From Lacihabitans soyangensis (GTDB lineage Bacteria > Bacteroidota > Bacteroidia > Cytophagales > Spirosomataceae): a stretch of 39,515 bases of DNA. The position numbers and the translations under genes were made by a program. Below are positions 24,156 through 25,486 of the stretch, piece by piece. Location: contig NZ_RJUF01000026.1 in the NCBI RefSeq assembly GCF_024343775.1, forward strand, positions 1 to 39,515, given 5' to 3'. The notes beneath the pieces were generated by a model, which saw only the letters and a list, made by a program, of their open reading frames with translations, ran no database searches and was not told where the DNA came from. Numbering within the stretch: position 1 is the first letter of the stretch; each line of letters opens with the position of its first letter.

Positions 24156-24275
24156 TTTTGTATCTTCAAAAATACACTTTTATGTACTTTTTGTATTTTA
24201 CAAAATACATTTTTTATGATATTTTGTATTTTTCATAATACAATTTGGAATATTTTTTGTATCTTTGAAAATACA
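24156..24275 (+). repeat. Array of four 21-bp inverted-repeat units at exact 33-bp period
   Basis: Units lie at 24156-24176, 24189-24209, 24222-24242 and 24255-24275, so starts are 33 bases apart without deviation and spacers are 12 bases of unrelated AT-rich DNA. Seventeen of 21 positions are identical in all four. Each unit begins TTTTGTAT and contains the inverted repeat TGTATYTTNNAWAATACA; the second unit is perfect over 18 bp. The last unit contains TATCTTTG (24260-24267), a match to the -7 box TAnnTTTG. It runs into a perfect palindrome TACAATATTGTA (24272-24283), 9 bases before the ATPase start codon. Placement and phasing suggest operator sites for a protein that binds one face of the helix. 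Confidence 0.9.
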
Positions 24276-24292
24276 ATATTGTAAAATCGAAG

Positions 24293-25486
24293 ATGCAAGA
24301 GCTATTTGAAAGCCAAAACAGGGTATTAGAAAAGGTAAATTTGGACTTTAAACGTTCTCTTTACGAAGCACTTCCGTGGGACGAAAGAGCCATCATGCTC
24401 ATGGGTGCGAGAGGTACAGGCAAAAGCACGATTTTTCTACAACACCTGAAAGAAAACTTCAAAGCTGATGAGGCACTTTACATCACTTTAGATGATATCT
24501 ATTTCAAACAACATACACTGGTAGATACCGCACGAACTTTCTTGCAAAACGGCGGAAAACTCTTGCTGATGGATGAAGTCCACAAATACCCTGATTGGAG
24601 CAGAGAAATAAAGAACATTTACGATTTAATGCCAAATCTGAAAATGCTGTTTACAGGTTCATCGATTTTGGAATTACAAAGATCTAATGCAGATTTGAGC
24701 AGACGCGTACTGAATTATTATTTACCTGAGCTTTCGTTTAGAGAATTTCTGGGAATAAAATATGGGTTAAAACTACCCAAATATACGCTTGAAGAGGTTC
24801 TAGCTAATCATGTGGAAATAGCAAAAGACTTAAAAACCAAACTTGAAAACCCTTTGGTGTTTTTTAAAGAGTATTTAAAATCTGGGGCTTATCCGTTTTT
24901 TAAGGAAACAAACTTAGTGGATATCCGACTCAAACAAACCGTGAACTTGATTATAGATACGGATATACCCAATGCAATACCCGTGGAGTTTTCGACTTTG
25001 AGTCAATTGAAAAAACTGCTGTACATTATTGCACAGAGTGTACCTTTTAAGCCCAATATCACCAAACTAGCAGAGCAAGTAGGCACCGCAAGACCAAAAC
25101 TGTACGAAATGCTAAAAATGCTGGAAGCTGCCAAACTAATATATGGCCTACACCACAGCAGCACCAACATTACGGTTTTGAACAAACCTGAGAAAATATT
25201 CTTGCATAACACCAACTTGCTTTATGTATTCTCAGAAAATCAGCCCGAAATGGGAACCATACGAGAAACGTTTTTTATAAATATGCTCGAAAGTGCCGGC
25301 CATAAGGTAAATTACACTGAAAAAGGTGATTTCACGATCAACAACAAATGGACGTTTGAAGTAGGCGGAAGAAACAAAACCCAGAAACAAATTTCAGGGA
25401 TTTCTAATGCTTTTTTGGCATTGGATGAAATTGAATATGGCTACGGAAATAGTGTGCCGTTGTGGTTATTGGGGTTTATGTATTAA
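24293..25486 (+). CDS. AAA ATPase (AAA_14 type) with DUF4143-like C-terminal region
   Basis: This 397-residue protein has Walker A GARGTGKST (38-46), Walker B LLLMDEVHK (90-98) and a sensor-like TGSS (121-124), the AAA_14 layout. A winged-helix-like segment (about 239-285, around ITKLAEQVGTARPKLYEMLKML, here split at 256-265 and 266-277) follows. The C-terminal end has a restriction-fold-like GDF (345-347), FEVGGR (355-360) and K362. In this the usual ExK has become ExG, so nuclease activity is doubtful. Such ATPases are common as isolated, patchily distributed genes with no assigned function. The gene stands alone behind a phased array of inverted repeats; with a DNA-binding-like segment of its own, autoregulation is plausible but inferred. 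It is convergent with the Dabb gene. Confidence 0.85.
   Translation: MQELFESQNRVLEKVNLDFKRSLYEALPWDERAIMLMGARGTGKSTIFLQHLKENFKADEALYITLDDIYFKQHTLVDTARTFLQNGGKLLLMDEVHKYPDWSREIKNIYDLMPNLKMLFTGSSILELQRSNADLSRRVLNYYLPELSFREFLGIKYGLKLPKYTLEEVLANHVEIAKDLKTKLENPLVFFKEYLKSGAYPFFKETNLVDIRLKQTVNLIIDTDIPNAIPVEFSTLSQLKKLLYIIAQSVPFKPNITKLAEQVGTARPKLYEMLKMLEAAKLIYGLHHSSTNITVLNKPEKIFLHNTNLLYVFSENQPEMGTIRETFFINMLESAGHKVNYTEKGDFTINNKWTFEVGGRNKTQKQISGISNAFLALDEIEYGYGNSVPLWLLGFMY

Follow-up and report, generated by a model that had tools for sequence, protein, structure and literature searches.

Phased palindromes upstream of an AAA_14-family ATPase gene are probably a private operator of the ATPase itself

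Background

Self-regulated operator arrays are found with lambda CI, in toxin-antitoxin operators and with the C proteins of restriction-modification systems. In all of these several phased palindromes lie over the regulator's own promoter, and cooperative repression is expected. The locus described here shares this layout. It differs in its putative reader, an AAA+ ATPase whose third domain is probably nuclease-like, and in the inner bases of the site, which vary between members of the family. Plasmid iterons, which are read by winged-helix Rep proteins, are another point of comparison. There too helically spaced repeats sit beside the gene of a winged-helix protein, but the units described here are palindromic, lie over a promoter and are not known to act in replication.

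PDC-S01 is a phage defence candidate in which an ATPase is fused to a PD-(D/E)XK domain (PMC12988326), and the ATPase considered here agrees with that description in its domain order. According to the accessible part of the same source, validation is pending for most candidates of this kind, and the defence label is itself a prediction (PMC12988326, PMC13356809). As far as the accessible text of PMC12988326 and the PADLOC description go, they mention neither a phased operator array nor self-recognition for PDC-S01. Inferring specificity residues from cognate sites has a precedent in the site-protein covariation of MerR-type regulators (Prot-DNA-Korr, PMC5045206). The proteins in the accessible part of that work are known transcription factors, whereas our ATPase is not described as a regulator in the literature that was searched. 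In that literature, which was mostly non-subscription, we found no report of a phased operator array read by an AAA+ ATPase of this family. Autoregulated operator arrays are already a known kind, but one putatively read by an AAA_14-family ATPase appears to be new.

Results and Discussion

The four-unit array

We refer to the whole stretch of DNA that was analysed, 39,515 nucleotides from Lacihabitans soyangensis, as the window. It contains an AAA_14 ATPase gene (P0001, 397 aa) at 24293..25486 on the + strand, identified by Pfam and PADLOC profile matches. Ahead of this gene lie four predicted operator units at an exact spacing of 33 bp, with no strand assigned. Unit 1 is at 24158..24177 (TTGTATCTTCAAAAATACAC), unit 2 at 24191..24210 (TTGTATTTTACAAAATACAT), unit 3 at 24224..24243 (TTGTATTTTTCATAATACAA) and unit 4, which overlaps the promoter box, at 24257..24276 (TTGTATCTTTGAAAATACAA). 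The symmetric form of the unit is TTGTATNTTNNNANAATACAN. It is 20 bp long, and 7-8 of the 10 pairs in each unit are self-complementary. A previous sequence-only reading had reported 21-mers at 24156, 24189, 24222 and 24255 with 17 of 21 positions invariant and 12-base spacers that differ, and our re-measurement agrees with it. It called these inverted-repeat units. The palindromy and the 33-bp phase hold, but the register has to be moved to 20-bp units that begin at 24158.

The window array scores 38.8 in a de novo search for phased palindromes that allows any period between 22 and 48 bp and 2-6 units; the best of 24 dinucleotide-shuffled versions of it scores 9.1. A related scan of 1,966 sliding windows scores the array at 46.2, and the highest value elsewhere in the window is 13.2. 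The array can also be compared with those of the orthologues L009-L012 and a remnant in genome G002. Across these six arrays the arms have a mean pairwise identity of 0.86, the spacers one of 0.55. Arms that are kept while spacers are lost point to selection on the units. The palindrome TACAATATTGTA, which had been noted just before the start codon, is real and is kept in L009 and L010, but it is lost in L011 and L012 and so is not a conserved part of the array. The idea of one fixed site motif as a general feature also has to be given up. Since the inner motif is private to each family member, neither that motif nor the extra palindrome is general.

Arrays across the ATPase family

Relatives were taken from 59 nearby genomes (19 with a match) and from 395 genomes of the class (63 with a match), where only the best few candidates per genome were scored. 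Further relatives came from the best 80 of 563 confirmed contig stretches, a choice that biases the sample to near relatives, and from 4 viral contigs. After 11 cases were dropped for low identity, for being partial or for lying at the edge of a contig, 191 were left that match over >90% of their length; 3 of them (L020, L189, L212) have an early stop. A phased array scores above the 99% level of 3,820 shuffles in 154 of the 191, and above the shuffle maximum in 95. Upstream regions of other genes at the same loci pass that 99% level in only 5 of 244 cases. There are 283 gaps between units, most of them 33 bp (155) or 32 bp (95), followed by 29 bp (11), 31 bp (10) and a few others. This makes 250 of 283 gaps 32 or 33 bp long, in a scan that allows about 27-36 bp and favours the TTG...CAA frame. 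When the period is left free between 22 and 48 bp, 135 of the 191 members still exceed the control 99% level and 226 of 261 gaps are 32 or 33 bp, while the periods in control upstream regions are spread flat. The array is present in 28 of 53 members gathered later, 52 of them from a phylum draw and the other being L275, and all 41 gaps in these are 32 or 33 bp. The check proposed with the sequence-only reading, a look for similar phased arrays upstream of homologous ATPases, therefore came out in its favour in both sets.

It must be noted that 37 of the 191 relatives and 25 of the 53 later members have no array at threshold. Some of these have a single palindrome at the promoter; others belong to one branch, L123-L135, in which only L127 scored. 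In the later set 20 of the 25 fall in two close clusters. We viewed 13 array-less members by eye, and at least L224, L231, L236 and L245 have a single palindrome over the promoter.

Units at 33 bp were also found outside the Bacteroidota, as judged by record title, on MAG contigs assigned to Fibrobacter (L183), Syntrophobacterales (L163) and Lentisphaeria (L174). A Desulfuromonadales MAG (L195) has weak 33-bp units; it scores 10.1 in one scan, where the shuffle maximum is 11.0, and 15.2 in the 191-member scan. Because all four are metagenome bins, their host labels may be in error. In the 191-member scan no array scored in the isolate Geobacter argillaceus (L184), nor in the MAGs L211 (Trichlorobacter) and L172 (Chlorobiaceae).

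A few members depart from the usual spacing. L014, L027, L101, L107 and L116 have 28-29 bp instead of 32-33 bp, and spacing may follow the branch of the protein. A 29-bp spacing does not keep the units on the same helix face, which counts against the mechanism proposed below. A Tannerella MAG (L168) has nine units in a row with one 23-bp break in the 32-33 bp phase.

Register with the promoter

The last unit had been said to contain a TAnnTTTG-type -7 box, and it does. This is TATCTTTG at 24260..24267 on the + strand, inside unit 4, and TAnnTTTG is kept in the orthologues L009-L012. The box and the -33 region are assigned from what we take to be the Bacteroidota -7/-33 consensus. A TAnnTTTG box lies within the last 70 bp in 145 of the 182 array-bearing members and is missing there in the other 37. 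In 93 of these 145 the TTG of the box coincides exactly with the TTG that opens the last unit. It lies 8 bp inside the last unit in another 8, the window's own arrangement among them. With one unit beginning at the -7 TTG the start site is covered, and the -33 region falls under the neighbouring unit 33 bp further upstream, which is the geometry of repression. Palindromic sites over the ATPase's own promoter are what one looks for in an autorepressor.

The ATPase

The AAA domain is encoded at 24383..24751 (+ strand), with a P-loop at G38-K44 and the acidic pair D94-E95. The AAA_14 profile (PF13173) matches at 99.3 bits (E 2.1e-28), above its gathering score of 27 bits. In the same Pfam search DUF4143 (PF13635) reaches 23.1 bits (E 6.8e-5), below its gathering score of 28.1 bits. 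The PADLOC protein models for PDC-S01 match residues 31-346 (88.7 bits, E 8.7e-26). This assignment is a match at the level of protein models rather than a PADLOC system call.

An AlphaFold model built with 81 sequences has a pLDDT of 95.5. It shows helices at 256-263 and 267-279 and a lower-confidence loop at 287-300. In this model residues 256-300 are a winged helix, made up of a helix-turn-helix, a recognition helix and a wing. Covariation and the predicted structure together place the recognition helix at residues 267-279 (P268, Y271, K275; 25091..25129, + strand) and the wing at residues 287-300 (T294, N297; 25151..25192, + strand), where pLDDT is only 74 over 291-300. Residues 268 and 271 both fall within the modelled recognition helix. 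The C-terminal domain, residues 301-397 (25193..25483, + strand), is a confident separate fold in the model. D346, E356, G358, G359, K362 and Q366 are invariant or nearly so within it, E356 and K362 fully. It is probably PD-(D/E)XK-like, a nuclease assignment that draws on the accessible part of the PDC-S01 description (PMC12988326).

Fold searches say little about function. The 50 matches listed are generic AAA+ and STAND proteins at a TM of about 0.3, among them weak similarity to Cdc6/Orc1, RFC and RuvB. Solved structures give only partial matches (60 of 96 considered), mostly over the P-loop region, and in that search the winged helix of CodY against residues 258-299 is not significant (E 0.29).

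Covariation of the site with the protein

If each ATPase reads its own array, then the private bases of the site should follow its DNA-reading residues. Most units share the frame TTG-N14-CAA, with a weighted T of 0.83 and G of 0.84 at positions 2 and 3, and the frame is also seen in scans that do not favour it. Bases 4-7 of the unit vary by member, giving TTGTAT (the window's own), TTGCTT (L081 among others), TTGCAC, TTGGTT, TTGATC, TTGACT, TTGTTA and others.

Mutual information across 151 members peaks in nine-residue windows whose centres lie at 263-272, and additional signals appear at 294-302. Summed over bases 4-7, D224 is the highest single column, ahead of P268, A260, A266 and Y271. 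A second test predicts the site bases from single protein columns while leaving out whole clades (179 members, 32 clades, bases 4-8). Of its 1,985 column/base pairs, residue 271 and base 4 come out best at 0.22 nats, followed by 297 with base 5 (0.092 nats) and 268 with base 5 (0.075). Residues 256-300 supply 11 of the top 25 pairs, where 2.8 are expected.

Closely related proteins can also be compared directly, using non-overlapping closest pairs. For base 4 there are 62 pairs that differ and 71 that agree. Residue 268 differs in 53/62 of the unlike pairs and 34/71 of the like pairs (p 4e-6), and residue 271 in 53/62 and 36/71 (p 2e-5), with the unlike pairs slightly more distant (mean identity 0.53 versus 0.58). 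Ranked over all 397 columns for base 4, 268 is first, 271 second, T294 third and K275 fourth. A260 leads for base 5, where D224 comes second; for bases 6 and 7 it is D224 that leads. In example pairs at 58-68% identity TTGCTT changes to TTGTTT or TTGGTT alongside N268 to V, I, S, A or Q. Some pairs break the pattern, such as L198 and L148, which both have N268 yet carry C and T at base 4.

A one-residue code was considered. Of the 78 first-set members with N268, 52 have C at base 4 and 12 have no clear base; among the 73 with another residue, C is seen in 3. Among 19 dereplicated held-out members the rule scores 4/8 against 1/10 (p 0.12), which is the right direction but not significant, so the site code is not one-letter. 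We therefore reject a simple one-residue code as the full account. Y271 goes with T at base 4 in 13/13 members of the first set, five of which are the window protein and its close orthologues, and in 5/5 of those with Y271 among the held-out members, a relation noticed post hoc rather than predicted beforehand. Taken as a whole, the covariation, on which the three tests agree, points to the ATPase's own winged helix as the likely reader rather than to an outside repressor.

D224 lies before the winged helix. It is a D/E switch and covaries strongly with base 7 of the site (Z 14). Its signal may mark clade or shared ancestry, or an oligomer contact.

Confinement to the cognate gene

A family of repeats scattered through the genome was a possibility raised with the sequence-only reading, and it can be rejected. 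The exact site pattern occurs in the window's own genome only at the four array units, and places with a single mismatch number 8 elsewhere against 4 for a reversed control pattern. Six other genomes with TTGCTTA-type members were searched with the motif of another member, palindromic matches being counted once. They have seven exact places, in 4 of the 6 genomes, all upstream of the cognate gene, and 13 single-mismatch places elsewhere against 8 for the control. The slight excess of single-mismatch sites away from the cognate gene counts against a strictly private array. Across the 182 loci, about 700 kb, the members' own motifs have 21 matches outside the proximal arrays, of which 17 lie further upstream and 4 within the gene or downstream of it; 12 of the 21 belong to a simple repeat in L079.

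Distal cognate units were seen 177-220 bp upstream of the promoter array in L090, L097, L100 and L320 (G465). They are pairs at 177-192 bp from the proximal array in L090, L097 and G465 (L320 by eye) and a single unit in L100, and look as if made for DNA looping.

No recurrent partner gene stands out. Among neighbouring ORFs of at least 90 aa, the most frequent families are present at 8, 6 and 5 of 244 loci, largely because close relatives share synteny. Within one genome, the site motifs of three members differ. We considered that paralogues might be insulated by avoiding each other's sites. Of 41 pairs from the 22 genomes that have at least two array-bearing members, none has like sites, but chance predicts about 1.7, so this is no more avoidance than chance would give.

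The gene and its array can be absent together. In G004 (L283, contig C37) the aminotransferase gene and the Dabb gene (the latter by eye), the same two neighbours, adjoin each other without the ATPase and the array, and by eye no terminal repeats were noticed at the boundaries between G004 and the window. G001 (L011) had seemed to be a second insertion site. This was dropped since the downstream neighbour is the same, which means only the left side is rearranged; a DNA search of five relatives with the L011 flank gave no match. Relatives of the ATPase are found on 27 of 72,556 plasmid records and 1 of 50,697 phage records. In G002 (L279/L023, contig C129) the four-unit array is intact and the ATPase gene is mostly gone, with the last 60 or so codons remaining.

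Proposed mechanism and alternatives

The sequence shows the array, its spacing, its register with the promoter, its confinement to the cognate gene and the covariation of site and protein. From these we infer that the ATPase binds the units as a dimer, cooperatively and with repression as the outcome, and that it is released by its ATP state or by a trigger such as phage infection. We argue that the gene and its upstream array probably form a self-contained unit, in which each ATPase would repress its own promoter through its private phased array. The sequence-only reading had suggested that a repressor, or the ATPase itself, binds cooperatively over this promoter. The arrays across the family, the sites that are not scattered and the winged-helix covariation support that suggestion.

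The winged helix, presumably in a symmetric dimer, would bind each 20-bp palindrome. The units are about three helical turns apart, so neighbouring bound ATPases would face the same side of the DNA and could touch each other through their AAA domains. With the last two units occupied the promoter would be closed, the last covering the -7 box and start site and the preceding one the -33 region. The outer TTG/CAA frame would be common to the family and the inner bases would be read mainly by residues 268, 271 and the wing. Since the inner bases are private, each ATPase copy would control only itself. Release by a changed ATP state or a phage signal is a natural guess from the PDC-S01 label.

One can imagine scenarios in which the array is real and repression is not its purpose. 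The ATPase could read the array to activate its own promoter or to store itself poised on the DNA. The same covariation data fit this, and arrays that extend beyond the promoter, such as the nine units of L168 and the distal pairs, exceed the needs of simple occlusion. However, in 93 of the 145 members with a -7 box the last unit lies over that box itself, where a bound protein normally blocks the polymerase, and we consider this scenario quite improbable. A separate host regulator could bind the arrays, with the ATPase gene merely its target. Phased palindromes are a usual operator layout, and autorepression by the ATPase is itself a deduction from sequence. Against an outside regulator, the recognition helix of the ATPase tracks base 4 of the site better than the protein's other columns do, the motifs differ between three members of one genome, no neighbour family of at least 90 aa recurs at more than 8 of 244 loci, and the window's own genome has no further exact site. 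We give the idea little credence.

The array could instead be an iteron- or centromere-like element that serves replication, partition or the movement of a mobile unit, with the ATPase acting like an initiator. The weak fold similarity to Cdc6/Orc1, RFC and RuvB, the plasmid and phage records, and the absence of the gene between the same two neighbours in G004 would all suit such an element. Yet this is a single gene without a recurring partner, no terminal repeats are visible by eye at the G004/window boundaries, and the array is locked in register to a promoter, which leaves an iteron only a very slim chance. As for chance or low-complexity A+T repeats, the array region is A+T rich and one counted member, L079, truly is a simple repeat that was caught by the scan. 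That explanation is already refuted by the shuffles and real upstream control regions, which score far lower, and by the orthologues, which retain the units and lose the spacers. The motifs of many members contain GC besides, and the probability of a chance array is negligible.

Autorepression through a private array could be part of something larger. The array might be a parking or assembly platform for an AAA+ ATPase-nuclease. Its subunits would be rowed up at three-turn intervals on a private address with the enzyme inactive and the gene silent, and a phage signal or a change of ATP state would clear the row to release an active assembly along with a burst of new protein. We think this extension unlikely. 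Since arrays with other spacings and motifs recur in some other AAA_14 branches, it would mean, if true, that DNA arrays addressed to their own ATPase underlie a candidate defence family that is very common.

The ATPase family is widespread in bacteria, and a private operator would be a first concrete handle on its role. There are now predictions for the DNA ligand, for the residues that read it and for the promoter, which makes it possible to test binding, repression and induction together. The relation of residue to base appears partly readable, and the family offers a natural set of many differing putative repressor-operator pairs.

Other AAA_14 branches

Four of about 23 AAA_14 loci outside this subfamily beat the shuffle maximum (L314, L305, L295 and L298) and the rest do not. 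L310, another of these, has 39-bp repeats just below the shuffle maximum. L305, which is in the window's own genome (contig C177), L295 and L298 have 31-33 bp repeats before their genes, with quite different motifs. L314 has six 22-bp direct repeats with the core ATGTAATTTCAAAATT, about 90-220 bp before a distant AAA_14 domain. Arrays of other layouts in other branches imply that the array plan may be wider than the subfamily.
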